Assembly (NCBI GenBank): GCA_030625885.1
Contig: DAOUPZ010000008.1
Location: 50,228 to 114,227, forward strand
DNA length: 64,000 nucleotides
Direction: 5' to 3'
Origin: Clostridia bacterium
GTDB lineage: Bacteria; Bacillota; DAOUPZ01
This document shows positions 28,971 through 48,237 of the stretch, piece after piece. Under the pieces are notes generated by a model. That model had not been told where the DNA came from. It did not search any database and saw only the letters and a program-made list of their open reading frames with translations. The position numbers were made by a program, and so were the translations under genes. Within the stretch, counting starts at the first letter, position 1. The number at the start of each line of letters is the position of its first letter.

Positions 28971-29008
28971 ACAAACTATTTCACTTTGTCTGAGGGGTGG
29001 CTAAGCTG

Positions 29009-29866
29009 ATGAACATTGATAGAATTAAAGAAATGGCAGTATCTTCAGTTTCATCTTCGGGAGAAGCGTATCAATCACTTTTGCTTTCAGCGGAAAAAGC
29101 TTTGGCTCTTGAATTGAAAAAGAGCCGGCGAGAAATTCAATTGTTAGCTTTAAAGCAGGGTGTTGTTCCAGAACGTTACATTCGTAATATCGGAACCATT
29201 GATGTTGAAGGACAAATATTGCTCTTAAATGCAACTGTTGCAGTGGTTGGTGCCGGTGGGCTTGGCGGAACAATTCTTCAATGTTTAGCACGTATGGGTG
29301 TTGGTCGATTGGTGATTGTAGATGGGGATGTGTTTAGTGATCATAACTTAAACCGGCAAGTGTTTGCGTATGAAGGAAATATAGGAGAAAATAAAGCAAT
29401 GGTCGCATCAGAACAGGTTCAGGAAATTAATGGATCAACTGAGGTAACGGTACACCCCGAATACTTGACAAGTGAAAATATCAATGACATATTAAAATCC
29501 GCAGATGTTATCGTTGATGCACTTGATAATATGTCCATTCGCTTTTTGCTTGAGAGAAATGCAAGAGAAAAGCAGATTCCTTTTATTCATGGGGCGATTG
29601 GGGGCTATTCCGGTCATGTAACAACATTTTTATATGATACGAATGATGTTGAAGGGCTCGCTGCTATTTATGGAGATGAAAAAGAAGTGTCCCAAACTGG
29701 GGTGGAAGTTCAAACTGGCAATCCAGCAGGAACACCTTTGATGGTTGCAGCATGGCAGGTTCATGAGGTCATTAAAGTAATTACGAAAGCGGGGCCCTCA
29801 TTGAGAAACAAGTTGTTATATATGGATGCTGAAGAAAATATAATACAAATAATTGATCTATTTTGA
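29009..29866 (+). CDS. ThiF/MoeB/HesA family E1-like adenylyltransferase
   Basis: VAVVGAGGLGGTILQCLARMGVGRLVIVDGDVFSDHNLNRQ motif; GTG at 28997 is an alternative start. Confidence 0.9.
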   Translation: MNIDRIKEMAVSSVSSSGEAYQSLLLSAEKALALELKKSRREIQLLALKQGVVPERYIRNIGTIDVEGQILLLNATVAVVGAGGLGGTILQCLARMGVGRLVIVDGDVFSDHNLNRQVFAYEGNIGENKAMVASEQVQEINGSTEVTVHPEYLTSENINDILKSADVIVDALDNMSIRFLLERNAREKQIPFIHGAIGGYSGHVTTFLYDTNDVEGLAAIYGDEKEVSQTGVEVQTGNPAGTPLMVAAWQVHEVIKVITKAGPSLRNKLLYMDAEENIIQIIDLF

Positions 29867-30002: not shown

Positions 30003-31364
30003 ATGCATATTCAACTTTGTCTACAACAAACACAAAAATTAATAATGACGCCCAAATTAAAACAAGCCATTGAAATTTTGCAATATTCACGTGACGAGCT
30101 GCTGGAGAAAATAAACGATGAATTGGTCAGCAATCCAATTTTAGAGATGAAAGAAGAAACAACGGATCTAAAACAATTAATATCTCATTTTTCTAGTGCG
30201 CATGATGTGAAGAGTTCCGGAAGTTATAAAATGGATGAAGAAATAGATTCCATGACGTACATGCAACATTTTTCTGATGCAAGCTGTTCGTTAAATGAGC
30301 ATCTTGAGCATCAATTACAGATGAGCTGCATGTCCAGTGAAGAAATGGAGATTGGGTGTACCATTCTAGATTGTTTAGATCAAGATGGTTATTTAAATGG
30401 AACTATTGAGGAAATTACTTTTGAATATGAGTGGGATCCAGCTATGGTTGAACGGGTACTGAAGGTGATTCAGACCTTTGACCCGCCGGGAGTAGGTGCC
30501 AGGAATTTGCAAGAATGTTTACTGATACAATTTGATTTATTACCATTATCAGTTAAGAAAACATATGGATGTATAGAAAAGATTATCAAGGATTATTTGT
30601 ATCATTTAGGGAATAGAAAATATGCACAAATTTCTAAAGGACTACACATTTCAGATGAAAAACTACGAAAGGCCATTCAAATTATTCAGAGTTTTAGTCC
30701 TAAACCTGGATTGTGTTTTGATAAGATTGGTAAAGTCGAATATATTGTTCCTGATATTACAGTTAAAGAAATTGATGGAGAGTTTTTTATTCTTCATGAT
30801 ACGTCTTGTTATCCTCGTTTGCGTATTAATCAATACTATTTACAAATGTTGGAAGATAAGAAAGTTGATGCAAAATCCAACAAATATATTAAGGAAAAAA
30901 TGGATGCTGCTCTATGGCTCGTAAAAAACATTGAACATCGTCACTATATTGTTTATCAGATTATGGAAAAAATTATATTTTTTCAGCATCAATTTTTTAA
31001 AGATGGGCCTAAGTATCTCAAACCGTTAAATTTAAAGGATATCGCTCATATGATAGATGTTCATGAATCGACTGTTAGCCGGGCTGTACGAAATAAGTAC
31101 GTACAGACAAAATGGGGCATATTTGAGTTAAAATATTTTTTCCCTGGTATGATCAATAAAGAAGATGGTGGATTGGTTTCCAATGAAGTGATTAAACAAA
31201 TGATTAAGGATTTTATCGATAAAGAAAATGCTAAAAAGCCTTATAGTGATCAACAACTTGTACATATATTACAGCAAAAAAACATTAAAGTTTCACGTCG
31301 TACGATTGCAAAATATCGAAATGAGATGGGAATAGCTTGTTCTAGTCATAGAAAAAGTTTTTAA
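30003..31364 (+). CDS. rpoN: RNA polymerase sigma-54 factor, paralog 1
   Basis: Region I QTQKLIMTPKLKQAIEILQYSRDEL; DVHESTVSRAVRNKYVQTKWG HTH; RpoN box SRRTIAKYR. Confidence 0.95.
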   Translation: MHIQLCLQQTQKLIMTPKLKQAIEILQYSRDELLEKINDELVSNPILEMKEETTDLKQLISHFSSAHDVKSSGSYKMDEEIDSMTYMQHFSDASCSLNEHLEHQLQMSCMSSEEMEIGCTILDCLDQDGYLNGTIEEITFEYEWDPAMVERVLKVIQTFDPPGVGARNLQECLLIQFDLLPLSVKKTYGCIEKIIKDYLYHLGNRKYAQISKGLHISDEKLRKAIQIIQSFSPKPGLCFDKIGKVEYIVPDITVKEIDGEFFILHDTSCYPRLRINQYYLQMLEDKKVDAKSNKYIKEKMDAALWLVKNIEHRHYIVYQIMEKIIFFQHQFFKDGPKYLKPLNLKDIAHMIDVHESTVSRAVRNKYVQTKWGIFELKYFFPGMINKEDGGLVSNEVIKQMIKDFIDKENAKKPYSDQQLVHILQQKNIKVSRRTIAKYRNEMGIACSSHRKSF

Positions 31365-31445
31365 TAGAAGATGCACCAATAAGATACGATCTTTCGTTTT
31401 ATCAAAACTAAAGATGATGATTCAATATGGTACAAAAATGATTTA

Positions 31446-31482
31446 AAGATGTTGGGTAATATGCTCAGCATCTTTTTTTATT
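31446..31482 (+). terminator. intrinsic terminator after rpoN paralog 1
   Basis: GATGTTG...CAGCATC + T7. Confidence 0.65.
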
Positions 31483-31528
31483 TTTAAATATGGATCTAAT
31501 TGTTAAATTTTAGAACAAAAATATCAAA

Positions 31529-31546
31529 TTGGCATATGATTTGCAT
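31529..31546 (+). promoter_or_regulatory. sigma-54 -24/-12 promoter for regulator 1
   Basis: TTGGCATATGATTTGCAT (GG-N10-GC). Confidence 0.8.
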
Positions 31547-31597
31547 TTAAATATAACTAGCTTATGTTTTAGATGACTTGAAAGAAGGTGAATAAAG

Positions 31598-33625
31598 ATG
31601 AAATCGTTTCAAGCCTATATACCAGAATTAGTCGGTTATGAACAGGCTTGGTTGCGTTTTATTAATACAGGAGAAATTGATACATCAGTCATTCGTCCTA
31701 TTATTGCTGAATCGTGGGAGAGATGCCGTAAAATGAACTTGGATCCTCTTAAAGCGAAAAAGGATGTTGTGCTATCAAAAGAACAATTAAAAAAAAGGAT
31801 AAAAGACCGACAAGAATTAGTCAAAATAGGGTGGCCTTTTATGAATATATTGTACGATATTGTAAAAGGTTCAGGATTTCGTGTGGATTTGGTTGACGAA
31901 GAGGGTTATATCCTTAAAATATTAGGGGACGAAGAAGCACTGGAAATTTGTCGGAAAACAAATTCTATTCCTGGGGCAAATCTTTCTGAAGATATTGCGG
32001 GAACGAATAGTTTATCCTTATGTACTATTACTGGCGAACCCATTCAGATCGTGGGGGCAGAACATTTTTTTCAAGCTAGTCATCGTTGGACGTGTTCGGC
32101 GGCACCTATTTTTAATGAAAAAGGAGAATTGCTTGGGGCATTGAACATGGGCGGACGTTATGAATTGGTACATAAACATACATTGGGCATGGTTGTATCA
32201 ACCGCAAAAGCAATTGAGGAAGAGCTAAAGATACAGCGTATGGCTGACGATATTTCCCGTAGTAACCAACAATTAAGAGCAACATTAGAATCTATTTCAG
32301 ATGGTATTATTTATGTTAACTTTAAAAAAAGAATTAACCAAATCAATAGAATAGCCACAAAAATTCTTGGTCTTGAGCCAAAGGAAGTCATCGGTAAAAA
32401 TATTGATGATTTTATCTCTGTATCTCCATCTGCTATTTCCCCCTCGTGGGATGGTGTTTTGGAATCAGGAAAAGGTTATGAAAATCAAGAACTCATTATT
32501 AATACCAAAAATGAGAGCTTTCATTGTTTTGTGAGTGCTAAACCTATCATGCGTCATGATAAAGTAGATGGGCTGGTCGTCATTTTAAAGCGTACTGAAG
32601 AGGTAAGAAAGTTAATACATAAGATGGTAGGGGCCACTGCTCGTTTTACTTTTGATACCATTATCGGTGAAAACGAAAATATTAAAGAAGTTATTGAATT
32701 GGCTCGTTTAGCGGCCGAAACATCTTCAAGGGTGATTATTGAAGGAGAAAGTGGTACGGGTAAAGAGCTAATTGCTCAAGCCATACATAATGAAAGTTTA
32801 CAACAGAACGGACCATTCATTGCAGTTAATTGCGGTGCTATACCACGAGAACTTATTGAGAGTGAGTTATTTGGCTATGAAGACGGATCCTTTACCGGCG
32901 CTAAAAAAGGCGGTATGCCCGGTAAATTTGAATTGGCTGAAGGCGGCACATTGTTTCTAGATGAAATAGGTGATATGCCGTTGGAAATGCAAGTTAAAAT
33001 GTTACGCGTCTTGCAGGAAAATCAAGTCATACGGATCGGGGGTCGCAAAGCGATTCCGATTGATGTTAGAGTGATTGCTGCTACGAATAAAAGCTTGGAG
33101 GAGGAAATTAAGAATGGGAACTTCCGAGAAGACTTATTTTATCGGTTGAATGTCATTAAATTGAACATTTCTCCATTAAGGGAGCGAAGGGATGATATTC
33201 CTTTATTGATTAAAGACTTTTTAGAGTGTATCAGTAAGAAGATCGGAAAGGAAATAGAAGATGTTGAGCCAAGTGTACTGGATATTTTAGTAGAATATGA
33301 ATGGCCAGGTAATATTCGCGAATTACAGAATGTAATTGAGCGTGCTATTGTGGTTTCAAATAAGCAAATCATTACAGTGAGTGATTTGCCCCAGCATTTA
33401 TATAAAGATGAAAGTGAACAGAGAGCATTACGGATTAAAGAATTACAATCTCTAGAAGAGATCGAGAAACGGGCAATTCTCAGTACTTTGCGGGCAGTAG
33501 ATGGCAACATATCAAAAGCCGCTAGGATTTTAAAGATTGGAAGGAATACATTTTATCGTAAATTGGAGAAATATGATTGCAAAGAATTTTTTGATAATAC
33601 AGATCATATGGTGAGCCATTTTTAA
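31598..33625 (+). CDS. sigma-54-dependent Fis-family regulator (GAF-PAS-AAA+-HTH), paralog 1
   Basis: GESGTGKELIAQAIHNES Walker A; GSFTGA loop; IREFfis HTH GNISKAARILKIGRNTFYRKLEKY. Confidence 0.94.
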   Translation: MKSFQAYIPELVGYEQAWLRFINTGEIDTSVIRPIIAESWERCRKMNLDPLKAKKDVVLSKEQLKKRIKDRQELVKIGWPFMNILYDIVKGSGFRVDLVDEEGYILKILGDEEALEICRKTNSIPGANLSEDIAGTNSLSLCTITGEPIQIVGAEHFFQASHRWTCSAAPIFNEKGELLGALNMGGRYELVHKHTLGMVVSTAKAIEEELKIQRMADDISRSNQQLRATLESISDGIIYVNFKKRINQINRIATKILGLEPKEVIGKNIDDFISVSPSAISPSWDGVLESGKGYENQELIINTKNESFHCFVSAKPIMRHDKVDGLVVILKRTEEVRKLIHKMVGATARFTFDTIIGENENIKEVIELARLAAETSSRVIIEGESGTGKELIAQAIHNESLQQNGPFIAVNCGAIPRELIESELFGYEDGSFTGAKKGGMPGKFELAEGGTLFLDEIGDMPLEMQVKMLRVLQENQVIRIGGRKAIPIDVRVIAATNKSLEEEIKNGNFREDLFYRLNVIKLNISPLRERRDDIPLLIKDFLECISKKIGKEIEDVEPSVLDILVEYEWPGNIRELQNVIERAIVVSNKQIITVSDLPQHLYKDESEQRALRIKELQSLEEIEKRAILSTLRAVDGNISKAARILKIGRNTFYRKLEKYDCKEFFDNTDHMVSHF

Positions 33626-33653
33626 GCTTAACTTAAGGTAATGTTAAGCAATC

Positions 33654-33692
33654 AAAAAGAGAATTCTTCTTCAGAAGAATTCTCTTTTTGTA
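33654..33692 (+). terminator. intrinsic terminator
   Basis: AAAAAGAGAATTCTTCT-tc-AGAAGAATTCTCTTTTT. Confidence 0.75.
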
Positions 33693-33898
33693 AATATAAA
33701 AAGTACAAAATGAACTGAAAGGTCAAGCATACCACTATTTCATAATGATACATTCGAAACAAGAAGTGTGCATATACGAGACATTATTATAAGAATAGAT
33801 CAAAGCGTATTCTTGGGAAATGATGATCAGAGGTTACAAAACGATATTTAGTGTTTTATAATTCTTAACGGAAAATAAAGGGTCGCATGTCATAGGAA

Positions 33899-33917
33899 TT
33901 GTGCTGTATTAGCACAA
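33899..33917 (+). promoter_or_regulatory. candidate enhancer-binding (UAS) inverted repeat
   Basis: TTGTGCT-gtatt-AGCACAA about 90-110 bp upstream of the predicted sigma-54 start. Confidence 0.45.
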
Positions 33918-33981
33918 AAAATGTTTTCAATACAATATTTATTTCATAATTATATAAAATAAATATCCAATTCTTTTCACT

Positions 33982-33999
33982 TTGGCAGAAAAATTGCAT
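33982..33999 (+). promoter_or_regulatory. sigma-54 promoter for ferredoxin-AOR operon
   Basis: TTGGCAGAAAAATTGCAT (GG-N10-GC). Confidence 0.82.
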
Positions 34000-34254
34000 T
34001 AATTATTAATCAAAAGAATGAATATAAGTGATCGATATAAGCTCTGAAAGGAGGGAAAAGAAGATAAAGTAATAGGGGTGTTTGCAAATAGCGCAGTATT
34101 AAATGAGCGTAACTTATGTAGGAAAAAATGATACATTGATTGATGAAAAAAGGGGGAAGTTTTTAAAAAATTTGAAATATTGATATTTTTTGAAGGAAGC
34201 GTCAGTATATATAATCTGACCATTATTGAAACAAATATTAAAGGAGGGGAAAAT

Positions 34255-34659
34255 ATGGCAAAGCTAAAACGCTTAAAACATGATCCCAGTAAATGTACTG
34301 GATGTCATTTATGTGAAATTGCTTGTTCAGGAAATAAGGAGGGGATGTTTAATTCTAAGAATGCTCGTTTAACAATCCATTCCGATTATGTAGAAGGTAA
34401 AAAATTACATACAAAAGCAGATATGTGTAATTTATGTGGTATTTGTGTCAAAAAATGTCCTGAAAGTGCTATTAAAATCGAAGAGGGTCATTTAATTATT
34501 GATCATGATAAATGTAATGGTTGCGGGACTTGTATCTATGCTTGTCCACAGAATGTTTTATCTTTTGATAGTAAGGAAGAGATAGCTTATTGTGATTTGT
34601 GCGGTGGTGATCCACTATGCATTCAGTTCTGTGCGCATAAGGCCATTACGTTAGAATAA
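34255..34659 (+). CDS. 4Fe-4S polyferredoxin (AOR electron-transfer partner)
   Basis: Cys motifs CTGCHLCEIAC, CNLCGICVKKCP, CNGCGTCIYACP, CDLCGGDPLCIQFC; ATG at 34255 after aggaggggaaaat. Confidence 0.9.
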   Translation: MAKLKRLKHDPSKCTGCHLCEIACSGNKEGMFNSKNARLTIHSDYVEGKKLHTKADMCNLCGICVKKCPESAIKIEEGHLIIDHDKCNGCGTCIYACPQNVLSFDSKEEIAYCDLCGGDPLCIQFCAHKAITLE

Positions 34660-34684
34660 AACAAATTAAATGGAGGTGAATTAA

Positions 34685-36526
34685 ATGTTGGGTTATCATA
34701 ATAAAGTGTTAAGATTTGATTTAACAAAGCGTCAGTGGAAGATTGAGCCTTTGAATTTAAAATGGGCTGAGCAATATTATGGGGGAAAAGGTTTAGGAAT
34801 GAAATATTTATATGAAGAGTTGGAACCGGGGATTGATCCTTTGTCACCAGAAAATAAGTTGATCTTGTCTACAGGTCCTTTATCTGGAACTTCGGCGCCT
34901 TGTAATGGTAAACTTTCTATTACGACTAAATCTCCAGCTACGAATCTTATTAATGAATCTTCTATTGGAGGAACTATTGTAGCTGAAATTAGATATGCTG
35001 GCTATGATATGATTATTCTGGAAGGAAAAGCAAGCAGTCCTGTCTATATTGAGATTGTAAATGATCATATTAGTATTAGGGATGCTGAAAACTTATGGGG
35101 GATGACTAGTCATGCTGCCGAACTAAAGTTACAGGATGAGATTGGTCACGAAGGGGCGACACTCTCTGTTGGGCCTGCTGGTGAAAATATGTGTCCCATG
35201 TCTTGTATCAATGGCGAATTGTTCCGCCAGGCCGGCAGAGGCGGCGTGGGGGCTGTGATGGGTTCCAAAAAGGTTAAAGCAATACATATCAGAGGGTCCA
35301 AGTACCCGGTAAAAGTTGCTGATATGAAGGGATTTCTGCAAAAAACAAAAGATTATTTGCAGAATAATGTTTTAACGGAAGATAATACGTGGGTTATTGA
35401 AGATGGGACAACGATTCTAGTGGATGCGACGAATGAAGGGGGTCTATCTCCTAATAAGAATTTCCAGGATGGTTATAATGAAAAGACTCATATATTAAAT
35501 AATGAAGAGTTTTTAAAGATTCGGGAACATAAAAAAGCCTGCTTTGGTTGTGGGTTAGGTTGTGGGAACGTGGTACGTGCTGGGAAACATTTCCTGGAAG
35601 GCCCAGAATATGAAAGCATTATTTTAGCAGGTCCTAATTTAGACATCTTTGATATTGAGTTTGTAACAGAATTTAATGTGTTATGCGATGATTATGGGTT
35701 GGATACGATTTCTTGTGCGGATACCATTTCTTATGCTATGGAAATGACAGAAAAGAAAATTCATAATTTTGGGATTAAGTTTGGACAACAAGATAAAGTA
35801 AGAGAGTATATAAAATTGATTGCGACTGCTCAAGGAGTAGGATTTGAATTAAGTAGGGGTACAAAATGGCTTTCTGAAAAATATGGCGGTAAAGATTTTG
35901 CGATGCATGTTAAAGGTTTGGAATTGCCGGCATATGATCCGCGTGGTTCTTTTGGAATGACGATCGCTTATGCTACGTCTGATCGGGGTGGATGTCATAT
36001 GCGTGGGTGGCCTGTTGCTGAGGAAGTGTTATCTGATGGAGAACCCTACACTTTAGAAGGTAAGGCGCAGATGACGATTGATATGCAACATTATAATGCC
36101 GTGAAGTTTTCTTTGATGATCTGTGATTTCTGGGCGTTAGGCTATGATGCAATGGCAGACTTGATGACTACAGCATTAGGAAGAGAAATTACAGAAGAAG
36201 AGTTAGAAAAAGCGGGTGAAAGAATTTATAACCTGAGTCGTATGTTTAATTGTCGTGAAGGATTTGCTAGAAAAGACGATACTTGTCCAGAGCGGGTATT
36301 TAAAGAAGCATTAAAGAGCGGTGTTACGGCAGGTAAGTTTGTGCCGCGTGAAGATTTCGAAAAAGAACTTAGCAATTACTATACTTTACGTCAATGGGAT
36401 CAAAATGGTATTCCGATGAAATCTAAACTTGAAGAATTAGGAATGGAAGTTCGAGAAAAACAAGAAAAAATTGTCTACTTAGCAAGTGTAGAAAAAGCAA
36501 ATGCGGAAGTTGCTGTAACCCAATAA
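34685..36526 (+). CDS. aor: aldehyde:ferredoxin oxidoreductase family (tungsten/molybdenum-pterin)
   Basis: 613 aa; YYGGKGLGMKYLYEEL, GPLSGTSAPCNGKLSITTKSP, CFGCGLGC cluster ligands. Confidence 0.93.
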   Translation: MLGYHNKVLRFDLTKRQWKIEPLNLKWAEQYYGGKGLGMKYLYEELEPGIDPLSPENKLILSTGPLSGTSAPCNGKLSITTKSPATNLINESSIGGTIVAEIRYAGYDMIILEGKASSPVYIEIVNDHISIRDAENLWGMTSHAAELKLQDEIGHEGATLSVGPAGENMCPMSCINGELFRQAGRGGVGAVMGSKKVKAIHIRGSKYPVKVADMKGFLQKTKDYLQNNVLTEDNTWVIEDGTTILVDATNEGGLSPNKNFQDGYNEKTHILNNEEFLKIREHKKACFGCGLGCGNVVRAGKHFLEGPEYESIILAGPNLDIFDIEFVTEFNVLCDDYGLDTISCADTISYAMEMTEKKIHNFGIKFGQQDKVREYIKLIATAQGVGFELSRGTKWLSEKYGGKDFAMHVKGLELPAYDPRGSFGMTIAYATSDRGGCHMRGWPVAEEVLSDGEPYTLEGKAQMTIDMQHYNAVKFSLMICDFWALGYDAMADLMTTALGREITEEELEKAGERIYNLSRMFNCREGFARKDDTCPERVFKEALKSGVTAGKFVPREDFEKELSNYYTLRQWDQNGIPMKSKLEELGMEVREKQEKIVYLASVEKANAEVAVTQ

Positions 36527-36768
36527 ATAAGAGATTGAGAAACAGAGTATCAAGAGAACACATTAATATTAAGGATGTGAAGATAAAAGGGAGTAGGGAA
36601 GCGAAGGGTGAGCTAACGTATCCTGGTTGTATAGGTTCAAATTATTATTGCGACGCTGATGGTAATTTGAAAAATATAGCAAAGGTTAGAGATGCGATCG
36701 AGTAAAAAAGTAAGCGAGTAAAAAAGCGCACCCAACTCCTTTTTGTAAATTGAATATGATGTAAGGAG

Positions 36769-36795
36769 CCCGGGAAAATATTTTCCCGGGATTTA
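36769..36795 (+). terminator. palindromic terminator
   Basis: CCCGGGAAAATATTTTCCCGGG. Confidence 0.65.
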
Positions 36796-36913
36796 TTATG
36801 GTCTAAGGGAATGTTATAAACTGGAATTTGTTTTTCTTAGCATATTATGGCTTGTTTCCTCATAATTATGGAATATAAACGCTATTGGGAATATGTATTC
36901 CAGGAGGATCAGC

Positions 36914-38269
36914 ATGTATTTAAATTTAAATTTAAATATGAATCAAACCCAAAAAATGATCATGACACCCAAACTTCAGCAAGCTATTGCTATTCTGCAA
37001 CTTTCTCGAGAAGAATTATATGCAAAAGTTCAGGAAGAAATGTTAAGTAATCCTTTGGTTGAAGTGGAAGAACAAAGTATGACTGAAGATATGCGTGAGA
37101 GAGAATTAAAAAACTTTGTGACTTCTTTTACTTCATATGGGAATGAAACTTATGCAGTTGAGAAAGAGGTAGAAGAAAAAGAGTCTTCAATTAGAAGGGA
37201 ATATGATTCGTTACATGATTACTTGTTGCACCAATTAAGATGTATGACAATTGATGCTTTTGAACTACAAATTGGGACACGATTAATTTTGAGTATTAAT
37301 GAAAATGGTTATTTACAGGAAGTGGTTGAAGAAGCTGCGCAGCCGATACTTTCCCTTATTCAGAGTTTTGATCCACCTGGCATTGGTGGAAGAAATTTAG
37401 AAGAATGTCTTCTTATTCAATATTGGCGATTAGAAGATCAAGAGGATAAAAAGTGGGCGCCTGTTGTGGTTCCTATTATTAATGAGTATTTAAAAGATAT
37501 TGCTGAACGGAAGTATAAAAAAATCAGTAAAGCATTAAACGTTTCGTTAAAAGATATCGAACAAGCTGCAGGTATTATTAAAAGATTAAATCCAAAACCA
37601 GGAATTGAATTTGCGGGTCATAATAATAAAGTAGAATATATTACGCCTGATTTAATTGTTCGAGAAATTGATGGTGATTTTACTGTTCTTAGCGATCAAA
37701 AAAATTACCCCTGTTTGAAGATTAGTTCTTATTATAAAAAAATACTATTGAAATCAAATGATGCAGATGATCAAGTATGTCAATATATTAGAGAACGGCT
37801 ACAATCAGCTTTATGGTTAGTAAAGAGTATTGAACAGCGACGTTTGACGATTCGCCGTGTTATGGAAAGTATTATCGGTTTTCAAATTGAATTTTTCAGG
37901 AAAGGGCCTAATGCATTATTTCCTCTTACTCAACGTGAAGTAGCTGAAGATATTAAAGTTCATGAATCTACTGTTAGTCGAGCTGTATCTCATAAATATG
38001 TACAAACAGATTGGGGGATATTTGAATTAAAATATTTTTTTCCAGGTGGGTTTGGTACAGATGATGGCGGAGAGATTTCGAGTGAAAGATTGAAGGATTA
38101 CCTTAAAGAAATAATTGCTGGAGAAAATCCGCTTAAACCCTATAGTGATCGAAAAATAGCTGAATTATTATCTGACAAAGGGATAAATATTTCCCGTCGT
38201 ACCATCGCTAAATACAGAGACGAATTAAATATATTATCCTCTAACAAAAGAAAAAGATACTTACTATGA
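36914..38269 (+). CDS. rpoN: RNA polymerase sigma-54 factor, paralog 2
   Basis: NQTQKMIMTPKLQQAIAILQLSREEL; KVHESTVSRAVSHKYVQTDWG; SRRTIAKYRDE. Confidence 0.95.
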   Translation: MYLNLNLNMNQTQKMIMTPKLQQAIAILQLSREELYAKVQEEMLSNPLVEVEEQSMTEDMRERELKNFVTSFTSYGNETYAVEKEVEEKESSIRREYDSLHDYLLHQLRCMTIDAFELQIGTRLILSINENGYLQEVVEEAAQPILSLIQSFDPPGIGGRNLEECLLIQYWRLEDQEDKKWAPVVVPIINEYLKDIAERKYKKISKALNVSLKDIEQAAGIIKRLNPKPGIEFAGHNNKVEYITPDLIVREIDGDFTVLSDQKNYPCLKISSYYKKILLKSNDADDQVCQYIRERLQSALWLVKSIEQRRLTIRRVMESIIGFQIEFFRKGPNALFPLTQREVAEDIKVHESTVSRAVSHKYVQTDWGIFELKYFFPGGFGTDDGGEISSERLKDYLKEIIAGENPLKPYSDRKIAELLSDKGINISRRTIAKYRDELNILSSNKRKRYLL

Positions 38270-38416
38270 GTATGAAAATATGGGAATTGTTTTTAAATAT
38301 ATATTATATTGTATACATAGTTTGTATTGTTTTAAGACAATGGATGTGGGTATATAAGTATGGGATTAAATATTTGTAATTTCAGCATATAATTGATGCT
38401 AAAAGAGGGGGGCACT

Positions 38417-40453
38417 ATGAAAAAACTTCAAGGTAATATTCCTCAATTAGTCGCTTATGAACAGGCATGGTTGCACTTTATTAATACAGGGGAGGCGGAT
38501 ACAGAAATAATTCGCCCTGTAATTGCAGAATCTTGGAAACGTTGTCGTGCACAGGGGCTTAATCCTTTAACGTGTAAAACATCAATCATATTGTCTGAAG
38601 AAGAGTTGCAAAAAAGGATCAAAACGCGTCAACATTTGGTGCATACAGCGTGGCCATTTATGAAGGTCTTATATGATATTGTAAAAGGCTCAGGATTCCG
38701 CGTGGATTTGATAGATGAGGAAGGTTATATTCTCAAAATATTAGGGGATGATGAAGCACTGGAAATTTGTCATAAAACCAATTCTATTCCAGGAGCCAAG
38801 CGCTCTGAAGAGATAGCAGGTACGAATAGCATGTCTTTATGCCTTATTACCAAAAATCCTATTCAAATAGTAGGGGCTGAGCATTATTTTCATGCATCTC
38901 AAGGATGGACCTGCTCAGCAGCTCCGATTTTTAATGATAAGGGAACTTTGTTAGGTGTTTTAAATATGGGTGGAAGGTATGAATTAGTTCATAAACATAC
39001 ATTAGGAATGGTTGTAGCTACTGCTAAAGCAATTGAGAATAAAATGAAAGTACAACAATCTACTCAACAATTAGCACGTAGAAATAGTCAGTTAAAAACG
39101 ACATTGGAATCCATATCAGATGGATTAATATATATAGATAAAAACAAAAAGATTACTCAAATCAATGTTGTAGCAGAGGAAATCCTTAATCTAAAATCTG
39201 GAGAAATAGTGGGAAAACCGGTTGATGAGATTTTTTCAATTACACCTTCATTGAATAATGTTTTAGAGTCAGGTCAAGGTTATCTTAATCGTGAGCTCAT
39301 TATTAATACCAAGAAAAAGAGTTTTCACTGTGTTGTGAGTGCTAAACGTATTTTGCGTGGTGGGAATGTTGATGGCTTGGTGGTTATTTTAAAACGTTCC
39401 GAAGAAGTACGGAAATTAGTACATAAGATGGTGGGTGCTACTGCACGTTTTACTTTTGATAATATTATTGGTAAAACAGAGAAAATGAAGAAAGTCATTG
39501 AACTGGCATGTTTGGCAGCTGGGACATCTTCGCGGGTGATTATTGAAGGGGCAAGTGGAACAGGTAAAGAAATGTTTGCTCAAGCCATACATAATGAAAG
39601 CTTGCACCAAAATGGACCTTTTATTGCAGTTAATTGCGGTGCGATACCACGGGAATTGATTGAAAGTGAGTTATTTGGTTATGAAGAAGGTACATTTACC
39701 GGTGCTAGGAAAGGTGGTATGCCCGGTAAATTTGAGTTGGCTGAAGGCGGCACATTGTTTTTAGATGAAATAGGCGATATGCCATTGGAAATGCAAGTTA
39801 AGATATTACGTGTCTTGCAGGAAAATCAAGTCATACGAATTGGGGGCCGCAAAGCCATTTCAATCGATGTCAGGGTAATTGCAGCCACGAACAAGAACTT
39901 AGAGGAGGAAATCAAAGAGGGGAATTTTCGAGAAGACTTATATTACCGTTTAAATGTTATCAAATTAACGGTTCCCCCCCTGCGTGAGCGTCGTAATGAT
40001 ATTCCCTTGATTGCACAGTATATTTTGGAGACATTAAGCAAACGTATTGGAAAAGAAGTCAAAGGCATTGATGCAATGGCTTTAGAAGCATTACAACAGT
40101 ATTCATGGCCGGGGAACATTAGGCAATTAGAAAATATTATTGAGCGAGCAATTGTAGTCTCTGCAGGTTCTGCTATTACAGTTCATGATTTACCAGAGAG
40201 TATTTTGGAAAGCAGGAATCAACGTTCTAAAGATGAACATAAAGATGAGTATCAAATGCAAGAAGGGGAGGAGAATGGTTTAGTAATAGAGGGGTCACTA
40301 GAAGATATTGAAAAACAAGCAATTATTAATACGCTTCATGCTGTTGATGGTAATATATCTAAAGCAGCTAAAATATTAAAAATTGGACGAAATACATTCT
40401 ACCGAAAACTTGAGAAATATCAATGTAAGGAATTATTAAGTAAAGAACAATAG
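38417..40453 (+). CDS. sigma-54-dependent Fis-family regulator (GAF-PAS-AAA+-HTH), paralog 2
   Basis: Collinear with 31598-33625 product; GASGTGKEMFAQAIHNES, GTFTGA loop, HTH GNISKAAKILKIGRNTFYRKLEKY. Confidence 0.94.
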   Translation: MKKLQGNIPQLVAYEQAWLHFINTGEADTEIIRPVIAESWKRCRAQGLNPLTCKTSIILSEEELQKRIKTRQHLVHTAWPFMKVLYDIVKGSGFRVDLIDEEGYILKILGDDEALEICHKTNSIPGAKRSEEIAGTNSMSLCLITKNPIQIVGAEHYFHASQGWTCSAAPIFNDKGTLLGVLNMGGRYELVHKHTLGMVVATAKAIENKMKVQQSTQQLARRNSQLKTTLESISDGLIYIDKNKKITQINVVAEEILNLKSGEIVGKPVDEIFSITPSLNNVLESGQGYLNRELIINTKKKSFHCVVSAKRILRGGNVDGLVVILKRSEEVRKLVHKMVGATARFTFDNIIGKTEKMKKVIELACLAAGTSSRVIIEGASGTGKEMFAQAIHNESLHQNGPFIAVNCGAIPRELIESELFGYEEGTFTGARKGGMPGKFELAEGGTLFLDEIGDMPLEMQVKILRVLQENQVIRIGGRKAISIDVRVIAATNKNLEEEIKEGNFREDLYYRLNVIKLTVPPLRERRNDIPLIAQYILETLSKRIGKEVKGIDAMALEALQQYSWPGNIRQLENIIERAIVVSAGSAITVHDLPESILESRNQRSKDEHKDEYQMQEGEENGLVIEGSLEDIEKQAIINTLHAVDGNISKAAKILKIGRNTFYRKLEKYQCKELLSKEQ

Positions 40454-40518: not shown

Positions 40519-41916
40519 ATGGATGGGTTAAGTCAACAATATTTTGCGGATTTTGATCTGGTTATTGAAAATGGGACGATCATTGATCCTAAAAGAGAAT
40601 TATATACAATAGCAAATGTAGCTGTAAAAGATCAAAAAATAGCCCTCATAACCCGTGCGGACATCAAAGGGAAGAGAACAATTAACGCTAAAAATAAGAT
40701 TGTTTCGCCAGGATTTATCGATTTTCAATCTCATGTTGATGGGAATTTATATTCAGCCAGAAGTGTGATCAGTCAGGGTGCTACAACAACGATTGGCGGG
40801 AATTCAGGAAACATTAACGATGCCCTAGAACGGATTAAAAGAGAAGGATTTCCAATTAATCAGGGTTTTCTTGTATCTCATTCTTCCACGTTAAGGCCTA
40901 TGGTGGGATTAAGTGACCCATATCGATCTGCCAGCCAATGGCAGATCGATAAAATGGTTAGCCTAGCAGAAGAAATGTTAGATTTTGGAGCACTCGGGAT
41001 CTCATCAGGGTTAGAATTTGTTCCGGGATCTTCTATAGAGGAATTACGGGCACTTGCTAGAGTGGTTGCTAAATATGGAAAGGTGATGCCTGTTCATATT
41101 CGACGTGATGGATGGGATGCTTTTAAAGCATTACATGAAGTGATTCGGCTTTCAGAGGAAACTGGGGTAGCCATTCAACTTTCTCATTTGACTTATATGG
41201 TGGGAATGGGGATGATGGCTGAAGCATTAATTTCTATTGATAAAGCACGTAAAAGAGGCTTAGATGTTATGGGAGATGCAGGGGTATATTCTGCTTTTCC
41301 TACTTTTATCGGCACAGCTATATTTGACGAAGGATGGCAGGAAAAATATGAATGTAGTTATGAAGATTTATTGATTTCGTCTGGTATTCATACCGGAAAA
41401 AGGTGTACCAAAATTTTATTTGATGAGTTGCGGCAATCATCTCCCAATACTTTAATTACTGCCTTTGTAGGTGAAGACAGTGAAATTATTGAAGCATTAA
41501 AAAGGGATTATATGCTTATTTCTACTAATGCCGCAGTGGGTTCTCATCAACCGGGTACAGGTCATCCTCAAGATATCGGTACTTTTCCACGTGTATTGGG
41601 CCGTTATGTAAGGGAACTTAAGGTGTTATCTATAATGGAAGCGATAAAGAAAATGACTTATCTGCCTGCACAGCGGTTTGGGCTTAAGAATAAGGGATGG
41701 CTCGGTGTGGGAGCGGATGCAGACATGGCTGTTTTTGATCCCAAGCTTATCATTGACCAAGCAGATTATTTGGGATATGGGATTCCTGATAAGTCACCAA
41801 AAGGAATAGATTATGTGATTGTGAATGGGGTAGTGGTTGTTGAAAATGGTATAGTGAAAGAAACTGAAATGCCGGGTCATATCATAAAATCTCTTAATAA
41901 GTTATGGATTGGATAA
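40519..41916 (+). CDS. amidohydrolase family protein (N-acyl-D-amino-acid deacylase-like)
   Basis: FDLVIENGTIIDPKRELYTIANVAVKDQKIALI...KIVSPGFIDFQSHVDG; metal-dependent hydrolase architecture. Confidence 0.88.
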   Translation: MDGLSQQYFADFDLVIENGTIIDPKRELYTIANVAVKDQKIALITRADIKGKRTINAKNKIVSPGFIDFQSHVDGNLYSARSVISQGATTTIGGNSGNINDALERIKREGFPINQGFLVSHSSTLRPMVGLSDPYRSASQWQIDKMVSLAEEMLDFGALGISSGLEFVPGSSIEELRALARVVAKYGKVMPVHIRRDGWDAFKALHEVIRLSEETGVAIQLSHLTYMVGMGMMAEALISIDKARKRGLDVMGDAGVYSAFPTFIGTAIFDEGWQEKYECSYEDLLISSGIHTGKRCTKILFDELRQSSPNTLITAFVGEDSEIIEALKRDYMLISTNAAVGSHQPGTGHPQDIGTFPRVLGRYVRELKVLSIMEAIKKMTYLPAQRFGLKNKGWLGVGADADMAVFDPKLIIDQADYLGYGIPDKSPKGIDYVIVNGVVVVENGIVKETEMPGHIIKSLNKLWIG

Positions 41917-41963: not shown

Positions 41964-43547
41964 TTAAATTGATTCTTGACTGACATCTGCGTTCGTACTT
42001 TCCACTAATGATTCTATATCATCACCAAAGAATTTATGTGCAACGATCAGTGTAACAACGAATATACCGAACGTAACTAAAAGGGGCACGATTGGGTTTG
42101 ACATAAAACCGGATAATATGAACCCTACGATCGCACAGGAGGCAACCGTAAAAGCGTAAGGAATTTGTGTTTTAACGTGATCCAAATGGTTACAAGCTGC
42201 ACCTGTAGAAGAAAGAATAGTTGTATCAGCCAGTGGTGAACAGTGATCACCAAACACGCCGCCACCCAGTACAGCTGCGATACAAGCTGACATATTGGCA
42301 TCAGTTGCAACAGCTAAAGGAATAGCAATGGGCATCATGATGGCAAATGTTCCCCAGGAAGCACCTGTTGAAAATGCTGTAAAGCAAGCAAGTAAGAAAA
42401 TCAAAACAGGGATGAAAGTGCCTGGAACAGTACTACCAATCAAACTAGCCAGGAAACCACCTGTATCTAAGGATTCACAAACAGCACCAATGGTCCAGGC
42501 CATTGTTAATAAGCAAAGTGCAAAGAACATCGATTTCATACCGACTACCATGGCTTGAATAGAATCCGTGATGGATACAGAACCTCGGATACGGTACAGA
42601 GCGATACCTACAACAACGGCTAGGAAAGTACCATAAATCAGTGAACTTGCGGCATCGGTGTTATTGAATGCTTCGCCTATGGTAATACCGCCATCGAAAT
42701 AACCGCCGGTATAAACCATAAAGAAGAGAGCACCTGAAAACAATAAGATAATCGGTACAACTAAATCGCTAACCTTTCCATTTTCGGCGGAAGTCATATC
42801 TTTAAAATCATCATCTGACGCACCAAGCTGAGAATCATCATAGGTTTTACCTGTTAAAACCGCTCTCTTTTCTGCATGAGCCATGGGGCCAAATTCTAAT
42901 TTGGTGAAGATGACGATACCAACCATAGCAATGGCTACCCAGGCATAGAAGTTATAAGGAACTGATTTCAGGAAAGCCCCAAACGGTTGGTCTGTAATCC
43001 CTGCTGCAGCAAATCCGGCAGCAATTAAAGATACAACATAGGCAACCCAACTAGAGATAGGAGCCAGGATACAAACGGGAGCCGCTGTAGAGTCGAGAAT
43101 ATAAGCGAGCTTTTCCCGGGAGATTTTGAATCGATCAGTAACAGGACGCATGACTGTTCCAATGGTTAAACTGTTGAAATAATCATCGAAGAATACAATG
43201 ATTCCCATAATCCATGTTGCAGCTTGAGCGCCTTTGCGGCTGTTAATTCGACTTGCGACCCATTCCGCAAATGCAACGGATCCACCAGATCTTGTTAGAA
43301 GACCTACCAAACCGCCTAAAAGGACAACAACCAAAATAACTCTAACATTCCATTCTGGATCGCCCAAACTATTGCAAATCATTTCAAATACTTCGATCAT
43401 AGCAGATACAGGATTAAATCCAGTTAAAATGAGTCCCCCTGCAAATACACCTAAGAATAATGACAAAAGTACTTCCTTAGTAATGATTGCCAGCGTAATG
43501 GCAATAATCGGTGGTAAGATTGACAGGAAACCAAAACCTTGTTCCAT
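41964..43547 (-). CDS. NhaC-family Na+/H+ antiporter
   Basis: 527 aa multi-TM; TWIMGIIVFFDDYFNSLTIGTVMRPVTDRFKISREKLAYILDSTAAPVCILAPISSW, GGGVFGDHCSPLADTTILSSTGA. Confidence 0.92.
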   Translation of the reverse strand: MEQGFGFLSILPPIIAITLAIITKEVLLSLFLGVFAGGLILTGFNPVSAMIEVFEMICNSLGDPEWNVRVILVVVLLGGLVGLLTRSGGSVAFAEWVASRINSRKGAQAATWIMGIIVFFDDYFNSLTIGTVMRPVTDRFKISREKLAYILDSTAAPVCILAPISSWVAYVVSLIAAGFAAAGITDQPFGAFLKSVPYNFYAWVAIAMVGIVIFTKLEFGPMAHAEKRAVLTGKTYDDSQLGASDDDFKDMTSAENGKVSDLVVPIILLFSGALFFMVYTGGYFDGGITIGEAFNNTDAASSLIYGTFLAVVVGIALYRIRGSVSITDSIQAMVVGMKSMFFALCLLTMAWTIGAVCESLDTGGFLASLIGSTVPGTFIPVLIFLLACFTAFSTGASWGTFAIMMPIAIPLAVATDANMSACIAAVLGGGVFGDHCSPLADTTILSSTGAACNHLDHVKTQIPYAFTVASCAIVGFILSGFMSNPIVPLLVTFGIFVVTLIVAHKFFGDDIESLVESTNADVSQESI

Positions 43548-43790: not shown

Positions 43791-43808
43791 TGCAACAATG
43801 ATACCAAT
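43791..43808 (-). promoter_or_regulatory. sigma-54 promoter for nhaC-like gene
   Basis: Minus strand TTGGTATCATTGTTGCAA (GG-N10-GC). Confidence 0.72.
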
Positions 43809-43916
43809 TTTAAAGATTTATAGAAAAAAATAAAAAAATATTTATATTATTATTATTTATATAAAATGAAAGTGTTTTTTTGAAAAGATTAGATAATAAA
43901 TGAATATTGTAGAGAT

Positions 43917-43955
43917 ATAAGACACTATGTATTACAAATGAACAGAGTGTCTTAT
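43917..43955. promoter_or_regulatory. inverted repeat between divergent sigma-54 promoters (candidate UAS or hairpin)
   Basis: ATAAGACACT-N19-AGTGTCTTAT. Confidence 0.45.
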
Positions 43956-44195
43956 AAGTGAACATCTTGATAAAAGAATAAAACGGCTGTTACAATATAG
44001 AACCTTTTATGTTAATAGATTATTCGCAAATTATAATTTTTTCAGCTAGATGCGGTGGGGATATTCCTATAAACGAGAAGTTTCTTCTATATAATTAGAA
44101 AGAAAAGCTTTAAAAAGCTAAATGAGTCATGGTTTGAAACGAATAAGATTGAAATTTAACAATATTATATTAGAAATAATAATATTAACTACGAA

Positions 44196-44213
44196 TTGGA
44201 ACGCAATTTGCAC
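44196..44213 (+). promoter_or_regulatory. sigma-54 promoter for moaD-like gene 1
   Basis: ATTGGAACGCAATTTGCAC (GG-N10-GC). Confidence 0.8.
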
Positions 44214-44334: not shown

Positions 44335-44574
44335 ATGGCTGTTCACTTGTTGCTTTATGGCTCACTTAGAAAATATTCAAAGAATAGTGAAACCATAGAA
44401 AACAGTTTATTATATCCATTCAGTCAAGGTATAACGGTTGCGCAGATATTAGATGGGCTAGAAGTTCCGGAGAAAAACGTTTCTTTTATAAGGGTCAATA
44501 AAAATAGATGTAAAATTCATATGACTTTGCGAGATGAAGATTGCATAGAGCTTTTTCCCAGGACCATTGGATGA
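44335..44574 (+). CDS. MoaD/ThiS-like ubiquitin-fold protein 1
   Basis: 79 aa; LLLYGSLRKY...LFPRTIG; ends in a single Gly. Confidence 0.78.
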   Translation: MAVHLLLYGSLRKYSKNSETIENSLLYPFSQGITVAQILDGLEVPEKNVSFIRVNKNRCKIHMTLRDEDCIELFPRTIG

Positions 44575-44650: not shown

Positions 44651-44668
44651 TTGGAACAAAACTTGCAA
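44651..44668 (+). promoter_or_regulatory. sigma-54 promoter for moaD-like gene 2 / CPA2 operon
   Basis: TTGGAACAAAACTTGCAA (GG-N10-GC). Confidence 0.82.
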
Positions 44669-44801: not shown

Positions 44802-45044
44802 TTGGCAATTCAATTATTGTTATATGGACCGTTAAAGAAATATGCGAAAAATATTGAAAAAGGTGAAAATGGTTTGCTGTATCCCTACAAACAAAATATA
44901 ACTGCTCGGAAAGTATTAGATGATTTAGGTATTTCTTTTAAGAACGTTTCTTTTATCATTGTTAATCAAACAAAATATAAATTAGAAACACCCTTGGAAG
45001 ATGGGGATTGCGTAAAAATCCTCCCTAAGATTTTGGGGGGGTAA
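44802..45044 (+). CDS. MoaD/ThiS-like sulfur-carrier protein 2
   Basis: 80 aa; TTG start after gggaggaaatcatt; C-terminal GG; clear paralog of 44335-44574. Confidence 0.8.
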   Translation: MAIQLLLYGPLKKYAKNIEKGENGLLYPYKQNITARKVLDDLGISFKNVSFIIVNQTKYKLETPLEDGDCVKILPKILGG

Positions 45045-45107: not shown

Positions 45108-46460
45108 ATGGAAATAACGCAATTGCTGATTGTGTTAGTTATTATTTTAGCTTTAGTAAAAATTGCAGGCGTTATTAGTGTTAAATTCGGACAACCAGCT
45201 GTTTTTGGACAGTTATTAACGGGGTTGCTTTTAGGTCCGGCAGTGTTTGGGGTTTTAGAGCCTCACGAAGCCATTTCCTTTTCAGCAGAAATAGGTGTTA
45301 TCCTCATGATGTTTTTGGTAGGTTTAGAAACCAATATTGAAGAAATGAAAAAAGTAGGAATGCCTGCTGTGATGGGTGGCTTTGGCGGTGTTATCGGTTC
45401 ATTTGTATTAGGCTTTGTTGCAGCGCGTTATGTTTTTTCCTTTGATGTCTTCATCAGTGTTTTTATTGGTGTGTTACTTACCGCTACTAGTGTATCTATT
45501 TCAGCACAAACGCTAGTGGAATTAGGTCATATACAGTCTAAAGAAGGTAGAACAATTCTTGGAGCGGCCATTGTTGATGATATTTTAGGGATTATTCTCC
45601 TATCTATCGTTTTAGGGTTCCATGGTGGCGGCGAAATTAATATTTTTCTACTCATAGGGAAAATGATCACGTTTTTTGTTGGAGCAGTCATTTTAGGACA
45701 GAAGCTATTACCGCCGCTGATTAAATATTTACGGATTAACGGTAATCGTTATACCATTACCTCTACGGCATTAATTGTATGTTTCTTTTATTCCTGGTTT
45801 GCCGAGTGGTTTGGCGGGGTAGCTACCATTACGGGAGCATATATAGCGGGTGTTTGTTTTGTTAAGAGTGATGCTGCTCATGAGATTGAAGAAAATATTT
45901 CCATGTTGGCAAATTCCTTCTTTGTACCGATATTTTTTGTGAATGTCGGTTTACAAGCAAAAAAGTTTCCGATTAATGGGCAATTTATCTATTATGCAGT
46001 ATTAATTGTAGTGATTGCTGTTATTTCTAAGGTGGGCGGTTCTGGATTAGGTACTTTCTGGTGTCGCTTTAATGTACTAGAATCATTGCGGGTAGGTATT
46101 GGGATGGTATCTAGAGGAGAAGTAGCCTTGATTATGTGTTCAATAGGTTTAAGTATGGGATTTATGTCACAAGAAGTATTTTCTTTAATGATTGTGATGA
46201 CCATTGCAACAACATTACTTACACCTTTGTTACTAAAAGTGTTTTTCGGCAATGCGACAGTTATTTCTAAAACGAAGAAAATTGACAGCGTTGTACAGCG
46301 AAAACGTGAACAGTTTGAGAAATATTTGCAGAAACAAGAAAATAGGAATTTATCACGGGTAAAGGTTTGGTTAAATATTCATGATTCGAACACAGAAGAA
46401 GATTTAAAGGAAGATGCTACTGATTTAATCATGTGTCACCCAGGAACGAGTGACTTATGA
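45108..46460 (+). CDS. cation:proton antiporter (CPA2/Kef-type)
   Basis: AVFGQLLTGLLLGPAVFG, ILMMFLVGLETNIEEMK, GAAIVDDILGIILLSIV. Confidence 0.92.
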   Translation: MEITQLLIVLVIILALVKIAGVISVKFGQPAVFGQLLTGLLLGPAVFGVLEPHEAISFSAEIGVILMMFLVGLETNIEEMKKVGMPAVMGGFGGVIGSFVLGFVAARYVFSFDVFISVFIGVLLTATSVSISAQTLVELGHIQSKEGRTILGAAIVDDILGIILLSIVLGFHGGGEINIFLLIGKMITFFVGAVILGQKLLPPLIKYLRINGNRYTITSTALIVCFFYSWFAEWFGGVATITGAYIAGVCFVKSDAAHEIEENISMLANSFFVPIFFVNVGLQAKKFPINGQFIYYAVLIVVIAVISKVGGSGLGTFWCRFNVLESLRVGIGMVSRGEVALIMCSIGLSMGFMSQEVFSLMIVMTIATTLLTPLLLKVFFGNATVISKTKKIDSVVQRKREQFEKYLQKQENRNLSRVKVWLNIHDSNTEEDLKEDATDLIMCHPGTSDL

Positions 46461-46872: not shown

Positions 46873-48237
46873 ATGACAAGAGATTTTAATGCAATTATGG
46901 AGGATTCTCAACGGGTATTGGATATTATTGCGAAGGATAAATTAGAAGGTAAAGAAATGGAAGACTATGTTGCAGAAACGACAGAAAATTTTGCGGAGTA
47001 TTTTAACCCTGGTTTCTTAGAGTATCGTAAATCAGCTTCTACTAATTTCACGGCTGTTGAATGGAGAGACAATGGTGATGTATTCGAAGACCTTCATGGT
47101 AATGAGTATATTGACTGTTTAGGCGGCTATGGTATTTATAACGTTGGACATAAACATCCTAAAGTTGTGGAAGCCGTAACAAATCAATTGAAACGTCAAG
47201 CATTACATAGTCAAGAACTTTTGGATCCATTGCGTGGTAATTTAGCTAAACTTCTTGCTAAAGTAACACCTGGTGATCTTAAGTATTCTTTCTTCTGTAA
47301 CAGTGGTACTGAAGCTGTTGAGTGTGCGTTGAAGGTTGCAATGCTTGCTACAGGTAAACATACCATTATTGCTACGACTGGTGCTTTCCATGGTAAAAGT
47401 TTAGGATCATTGAGTTGTACTTCTAAGTTTGTGTTCCGTAAGCCTTTCTTACCATTACTTCAAGGCGTTAAACATGTTCCATATAATGATCTTGACTGTA
47501 TGGAAAAAATGATACAAAGCTGTCAGTTTACAGGTGAAGATGCTGCTGCTATTATTGTAGAGCCGATTCAAGGTGAAGGTGGCGTTCTCGTTCCTGATGA
47601 TGATTACTTACCAGGACTTCGGAAATTATGTGATAAATATGATGTATTATTGATTGCTGATGAAGTTCAAACAGGTATGGGTAGAACGGGTAAATTCTGG
47701 TGTTGTGATCACTGGGATGTTACACCTGACCTTCTTTGTACAGCTAAAGCATTTGGTGGCGCTGTAATGCCAGCAGGCGCATGTGTTGGTACTGAAAAAG
47801 TTTGGAAAGCTATGATGCCTAACCCATTCTTACATACAACAACATTTGGTGGTAACCCACTAGCTTGTGCTGCAGCTATTGCAACAATCAATGTTCTTTT
47901 AGAAGATAAATTGGTTGAACGTGCAGCTACAGTAGGTGAAGATTTCATTAAGAGATTAGATGGCGTTGCAAAGAAATATCCACAACATGCTGTTGAAGCA
48001 CGTGGAAAAGGTTTCTTGATTGCTATGGAATTTGTAGATGGTGAAAAAGGTTATATGGTAGCTAAGAGTTTATTTAGTCAAGGTGTTATTGTTGCCGGTA
48101 CTTTAATTAATGCGAAGACCATTCGTGTTGAGCCACCAACGACTATTAGTCAAGAACATATGGACGCTGTTGTTGCAGCATTTGATAAAGCATTAGCAAG
48201 CTTAGACGTAGCTGAAGCTGCTGCTACTAACGCATAA
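46873..48237 (+). CDS. patA: putrescine aminotransferase (class III PLP)
   Basis: EYFNPGFLEYRKSASTNFTAVEW, SFFCNSGTEAVECALKVA, LIADEVQTGMGRTGKFW; strong resemblance to E. coli PatA/YgjG. Confidence 0.9.
   Translation: MTRDFNAIMEDSQRVLDIIAKDKLEGKEMEDYVAETTENFAEYFNPGFLEYRKSASTNFTAVEWRDNGDVFEDLHGNEYIDCLGGYGIYNVGHKHPKVVEAVTNQLKRQALHSQELLDPLRGNLAKLLAKVTPGDLKYSFFCNSGTEAVECALKVAMLATGKHTIIATTGAFHGKSLGSLSCTSKFVFRKPFLPLLQGVKHVPYNDLDCMEKMIQSCQFTGEDAAAIIVEPIQGEGGVLVPDDDYLPGLRKLCDKYDVLLIADEVQTGMGRTGKFWCCDHWDVTPDLLCTAKAFGGAVMPAGACVGTEKVWKAMMPNPFLHTTTFGGNPLACAAAIATINVLLEDKLVERAATVGEDFIKRLDGVAKKYPQHAVEARGKGFLIAMEFVDGEKGYMVAKSLFSQGVIVAGTLINAKTIRVEPPTTISQEHMDAVVAAFDKALASLDVAEAAATNA

Follow-up and report, generated by a model that had tools for sequence, protein, structure and literature searches.

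A putative sigma-54-controlled aldehyde oxidoreductase island of a Clostridia bacterium, with two intact rpoN genes that each adjoin one of two paralogous activators

According to the usual view, a single sigma-54 serves every activator in a cell. The locus analysed here provides a concrete case for asking whether each activator needs a separate sigma-54. Within a stretch of 64,000 nucleotides from a Clostridia bacterium (in the following called the window) two sigma-54 genes, rpoN1 and rpoN2, are each followed by a sigma-54 activator, EBP1 and EBP2. The system is small, with two old sigma-54 paralogues, four activators and a handful of recognisable sigma-54 promoters, such that sharing of the sigma factors can be distinguished from specificity.

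Genes and regulatory sites of the island

A preliminary description of this DNA had placed rpoN1, EBP1, a ferredoxin gene, a gene for aldehyde:ferredoxin oxidoreductase (AOR), rpoN2 and EBP2 in this order on the + strand. The order was borne out and all six genes were found intact at the expected coordinates, with likely starts refined to 36914 (rpoN2), 38417 (EBP2) and 34255 (ferredoxin). Judged from its gene and promoter content, the stretch is most likely part of a sigma-54-controlled AOR island covering approximately 29–48 kb of the window. The genes, promoters, enhancers (UAS) and terminators that were read from the sequence are:

28997–29866, + strand: ThiF/MoeB-like adenylyltransferase (PF00899); a ThiF homologue adjoins MoaD and AOR in loci L234 and L235
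29870–29904, + strand: terminator-like hairpin in the ThiF/rpoN1 gap (fold -18.4 kcal/mol, z -4.3)
30003–31364, + strand: rpoN1, sigma-54 (domain and equivalog profile matches)
31446–31475, + strand: terminator-like hairpin in the rpoN1/EBP1 gap (z -4.2, T run behind)
31501–31517, no strand: UAS-like TGT-N11-ACA 5' of EBP1, weak on its own (P 0.10)
31530–31545, + strand: sigma-54 promoter TGGCATATGATTTGCA of EBP1 (0 mismatches)
31598–33625, + strand: EBP1, GAF-PAS-AAA+-Fis activator with GSFTGA loop (domain matches)
33653–33690, + strand: terminator-like hairpin 3' of EBP1 (perfect arms of 18 nt, z -6.7)
33767–33783, no strand: UAS-like TGT-N11-ACA of ferredoxin-AOR
33900–33916, no strand: UAS-like site within the palindrome TTGTGC-N7-GCACAA (the two sites together, P 0.002)
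33983–33998, + strand: sigma-54 promoter TGGCAGAAAAATTGCA of ferredoxin-AOR (0 mismatches)
34255–34659, + strand: ferredoxin-type protein with four Cys clusters (Fer4 matches)
34685–36526, + strand: aldehyde:ferredoxin oxidoreductase AOR1 (PF02730, PF01314)
36769–36790, + strand: terminator-like hairpin 5' of rpoN2
36914–38269, + strand: rpoN2, sigma-54 (the ORF opens at 36893; AGGAGG-ATG favours 36914)
38323–38339, no strand: UAS-like TGT-N11-ACA 5' of EBP2, without an accompanying sigma-54 promoter
38417–40453, + strand: EBP2, EBP1 paralogue with GTFTGA loop and Walker A GASGTGKE
40519–41916, + strand: amidohydrolase-family protein (profile matches)
41964–43547, - strand: NhaC-type Na+/H+ antiporter (PF03553)
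43791–43806, - strand: sigma-54 promoter TGGTATCATTGTTGCA of the NhaC gene (near-perfect)
43908–43964, no strand: three TGT-N11-ACA UASs, spaced exactly 20 bp (at least 3 sites in 0 of 1000 shuffles)
44197–44212, + strand: sigma-54 promoter TGGAACGCAATTTGCA of MoaD1 (near-perfect)
44335–44574, + strand: MoaD/ThiS-like protein 1 (PF14451)
44652–44667, + strand: sigma-54 promoter TGGAACAAAACTTGCA of MoaD2 (near-perfect)
44802–45044, + strand: MoaD/ThiS-like protein 2 (PF02597; 49% identity to MoaD1)
45108–46460, + strand: Na+/H+ exchanger family protein (PF00999)
46873–48237, + strand: class-III aminotransferase (676 bits vs a putrescine aminotransferase cut-off of 612)

The hairpins at the ThiF/rpoN1, rpoN1/EBP1, EBP1/ferredoxin and AOR/rpoN2 boundaries indicate that neighbouring genes are probably separate transcription units. 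In particular, the hairpin between rpoN1 and EBP1 suggests that this pair is probably not one operon.

Genome-wide, the strict sigma-54 promoter pattern yielded 10 matches vs 2 for the reversed control, and 6 of the 10 were discarded since they lay inside coding DNA or faced away from genes. Upstream of the island promoters, paired half-sites TGT-N11-ACA occurred 6 times vs 0.3 expected. The triplet at 43908–43964 lies in the gap between the NhaC promoter and the divergently oriented MoaD1 promoter. Sigma-54 promoters were also sought 5' of rpoN1, rpoN2 and EBP2, and none was found there; the aminotransferase gene is without a sigma-54 promoter within the window. For the aor-moaD genes of other organisms, AorR/sigma-54 control with TGT-ACA motifs at a spacing of 10–12 bp was predicted by Nie et al. 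2019 (PMC6615313). Several elements of such a regulon are found here, namely a sigma-54 promoter and TGT-N10-12-ACA sites 5' of the aor operon, an EBP nearby and moaD among the putatively controlled genes. The two MoaD promoters are of the type TGGAAC, not TGGCAN, and each of the tandem genes has its own.

Other sigma-54 sites of the genome lie 5' of an aminotransferase-AOR operon beside the activator EBP4 and 5' of a transporter beside EBP3. On contig C36 (L153:3376-7001) a sigma-54 promoter TGGCATGAAAATTGCA precedes an operon of an ornithine-cyclodeaminase-like gene and an AOR; an activator was not found nearby. Contig C16 (L015:2277-5046) carries sigma-54-like sites 5' of a CPA2-type transporter and of a GrdX/glycine-reductase-like pair (TGGCACGCTTTATGCA).

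Copy number and rarity of the sigma-54 genes

RpoN1 and RpoN2 both possess the AID, the core-binding and the DNA-binding domain, all well over the Pfam cut-offs, and reach 447 and 414 bits, respectively, with the NCBIfam rpoN equivalog profile (cut-off 277). The RpoN box SRRTIAKYR and the HTH core VHESTVSRAV are present in both. Both proteins are full length, with departures at only 6 (rpoN1) and 4 (rpoN2) of 72 conserved sites, such that the earlier view of neither sigma-54 being degenerate holds. At the amino-acid level, RpoN1 and RpoN2 are 45% and EBP1 and EBP2 73% identical (72% for the EBP nucleotides). An assembly artefact, which the preliminary description had named as a possible source of the repeat, is incompatible with identities this low.

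Counting rpoN over the whole genome (3.1 Mb in 39 contigs) revealed three genes rather than two. The third, rpoN3, lies on contig C16 (L015:11667-13028) and is 64% identical to RpoN1. Its codon 64, between the intact region I and the remainder, is an in-frame TGA, and the gene is otherwise open to its end, which leaves two intact copies and one interrupted copy. The TGA could be a sequencing error or a recent nonsense mutation, or the protein could be split. Selenocysteine, considered because of a glycine-reductase-like gene in the genome, was set aside, as the TGA sits in a variable linker.

In the phylum, 399 genomes were sampled, of which 263 gave a match to the sigma-54 DNA-binding domain. 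Two separate rpoN genes, verified with the full-length protein, were found in 4 of the 399 (G107, G379, G296 and G380, from 2 genera), and three copies in none of them. Several further genomes with apparently multiple copies turned out to contain split or partial matches. The genus, family, order and class of the present organism are represented in the sample by this genome alone. Elsewhere, Nie et al. found a single copy in each of 57 Clostridiales with sigL (PMC6615313), and in a wider survey approximately 5% of the organisms had more than one sigma-54 gene (PMC12316311).

For 89 further rpoN loci, we also surveyed flanks of at most 1.5 kb. An EBP was found within this distance at 2 of them, both from the genus g68, while gapA was found at 62; the contexts of typical rpoN loci agree with this neighbour survey. 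The adjacency of rpoN and EBP at the present locus is more than chance. The described arrangement of two intact paralogous rpoN genes, each adjoining a paralogous activator, is thereby confirmed and is rare in the sampled phylum. In g68, the genomes G296 and G380 contain two very divergent rpoN genes each (L167, L168, L169 and L170); both copies adjoin an EBP in G296 and one does so in G380. One rpoN copy per genome lies near nitrogenase-reductase-like genes.

Shared or dedicated sigma factors

Only four activators of this genome have a complete sigma-54 interaction domain. EBP4 is located on contig C5, and EBP3, of the response-regulator type, on C16 at approximately 5 kb from rpoN3. EBP1 and EBP2 both comprise a GAF-like domain, a PAS domain, the AAA+ domain Sigma54_activat and the HTH domain HTH_8. 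Their recognition helices are identical (GRNTFYRKLEKY), and that of EBP4 differs. The GAFTGA loop, found as such in nearly all outside relatives, reads GSFTGA in EBP1 and GTFTGA in EBP2; GSFTGA is listed as a functional variant and GTFTGA is not named (PMC6615313). In the Walker A motif of EBP2 (GASGTGKE) an A replaces an E that is present in 30 of 30 relatives, and both this change and that in the loop affect sites conserved in 97–100% of relatives. The unusual Walker A motif together with GTFTGA suggests that the ATPase or the sigma contact of EBP2 may be altered.

How did the two pairs arise? The preliminary description had proposed one duplication of a module. That both pairs have the same gene order and orientation would fit a tandem duplication of rpoN-EBP around the AOR genes, as would the grouping of RpoN1, RpoN2 and RpoN3 in one clade (support 100/99). 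The distances in the trees provide a different picture: RpoN1 and RpoN2 are separated by 1.8 (nearest outside protein 2.2), RpoN1 and RpoN3 by 0.59, and EBP1 and EBP2 by 0.47, compared with 1.7 to the nearest outside EBP, the outside EBPs being relatives with orthology assumed at most. Scaled to the nearest outside relative, the RpoN1-RpoN2 split is at 0.83 and the EBP1-EBP2 split at 0.27, the same value as for RpoN1-RpoN3. On these distances the EBP split and the RpoN1/RpoN3 split are of about equal relative age, RpoN1/RpoN2 separated much earlier, and RpoN1 is closest to RpoN3 rather than RpoN2. The far older RpoN1/RpoN2 split argues against one duplicated module, and the equal relative ages of the RpoN and EBP splits that such an origin predicts were not observed. 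We thus consider a single tandem duplication highly improbable. Gene conversion between EBP1 and EBP2 was rejected, with no long near-identical stretch being found (maximum of 91% in 25 codons).

The preliminary description had further suggested two insulated sigma-54 channels. A precedent is Cereibacter (Rhodobacter) sphaeroides, in which every RpoN studied is paired with a bEBP of its own and the base at -11 is reported to matter (PMC11999139). By analogy, EBP1 would work with RpoN1 and EBP2 with RpoN2, the GAFTGA loop of each activator contacting region I of its sigma factor. The unlike loops of the two activators would suit such pairs, and so would an adjacency of rpoN and EBP that is rare among the surveyed loci yet occurs twice here, as well as its recurrence in the two-rpoN members of g68. 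The ratio of three rpoN genes to four EBPs is also similar to that in C. sphaeroides, with four and five, respectively (PMC11999139). Against this stand the mismatched split ages and the region I identity of RpoN1 and RpoN2, which at 55% is at the level expected for pairs of similar DBD identity (51 ± 15%). Moreover, the same enhancers are expected for both EBPs, and all five island promoters have A at -11 (TTGCA), so that promoter classes differing at this position, as in C. sphaeroides, were not found among them; the other sigma-54 sites found end in A too. With the motifs that read -24/-12 and the EBP recognition helices being essentially alike, there is no sign of insulation in the sequence, and the evidence leans against separate channels. 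Dedicated pairs we therefore regard as unlikely. Similarly doubtful are self-contained sigma-54 cassettes with their own sigma, activator and targets, in which the GSFTGA and GTFTGA loops would each fit region I of the partner RpoN. If true, the cassettes would represent a gene-linked, specific pairing of sigma-54 and activator outside the Alphaproteobacteria.

A further explanation is a turnover of sigma-54 copies, in which rpoN3 is already broken and a copy out of rpoN1/rpoN2, or EBP2, is being lost. The TGA of rpoN3 and its longer branch (0.41 vs 0.18 for RpoN1) point in this direction, as do the changes of EBP2 in Walker A and the GAFTGA loop. However, neither rpoN1 nor rpoN2 is truncated, both depart little from the conserved sites and EBP2 has kept all of its domains, such that turnover appears rather improbable.

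We prefer that RpoN1 and RpoN2 share promoter use and have overlapping roles, to which we assign a probability of roughly 0.55. In this case the two old, intact paralogues would be expressed from promoters that are not sigma-54-dependent and most likely recognise one common set of -24/-12 promoters, both at this locus and at sigma-54 sites elsewhere in the genome. EBP1, and probably EBP2, would be AorR-like activators that presumably sense a metabolite via their GAF/PAS domains. They would bind the TGT-N11-ACA enhancers and open the sigma-54 promoters of EBP1, ferredoxin-AOR, NhaC and both MoaD genes. What speaks against sharing is that two intact sigma-54 genes have been kept, each with its own neighbouring activator, which would point to a certain division of labour, and that the two activators have unlike GAFTGA loops and EBP2 an unusual Walker A motif.

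Function of the island and comparison with known systems

AOR1 has orthologues in six sampled genomes (50–54% identity), clearly separate from other AORs. All six share the gene order ferredoxin-AOR-MoaD; a class-III aminotransferase lies upstream in five of them, and four have an EBP in view. A transporter comes next in most of these loci, several have TGGCAC-TTGCA sigma-54 promoters, and rpoN is elsewhere in the genome where listed. Both class-III aminotransferases tested from these loci score over the putrescine aminotransferase cut-off. An E1-like EBP within approximately 4 kb of an AOR was counted by eye in 18 sampled genomes. The present genome contains ten AOR-family matches (on C4, C5, C9, C19, C22, C23, C26, C28 and C36), one of them broken by TAA.

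Since its orthologues sit in ferredoxin-AOR-MoaD operons with a neighbour that, in both cases tested, scores as putrescine aminotransferase, the best guess is that AOR1 oxidises an aldehyde derived from an amine or amino acid. The earlier assignment to aldehyde/amino-acid-derived carbon metabolism is thus kept in its outline and narrowed to this reaction. The class-III aminotransferase would provide the aldehyde, possibly from putrescine, and AOR1, a ferredoxin-linked and probably tungsten-containing enzyme, would oxidise it and pass the electrons to ferredoxin; 4-aminobutanal is an example of a substrate that the neighbouring genes suggest. The ThiF/MoeB-like adenylyltransferase probably has a role in the MoaD/pterin cofactor. 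Overall, the island hints at a ferredoxin-linked pathway for amine or amino-acid aldehydes that is probably conserved.

The locus extends a widespread unit under sigma-54 control that consists of activator, ferredoxin, AOR and MoaD, often together with a putrescine-type aminotransferase. The metabolic cluster with its activator is ordinary; the rare part is the two sigma-54 genes beside two activators. It resembles the AorR/sigma-54 regulon of Clostridium and Geosporobacter in the PAS-containing EBP beside AOR, the sigma-54 promoter, the TGT-ACA enhancers and the inclusion of moaD (PMC6615313). Unlike that regulon, with one sigL per genome, the island has two rpoN genes, a doubled EBP and moaD genes with their own sigma-54 promoters. 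Divergent rpoN copies adjoining an EBP are shared with g68 (G296, G380), where, however, RpoN identity is only 25–29% and the recognised neighbours are without AOR. Two rpoN genes are also known from Ralstonia, Xanthomonas, Bradyrhizobium and Mesorhizobium, with partly overlapping and partly special roles, whereas here the organism belongs to the Bacillota and both copies lie within 7 kb in a metabolic island. With C. sphaeroides the genome has in common several rpoN paralogues and few EBPs; it differs in its phylum, in a pairing specificity that is hypothetical at most, in promoters that are alike at -11 and in rpoN genes directly adjoining an EBP.
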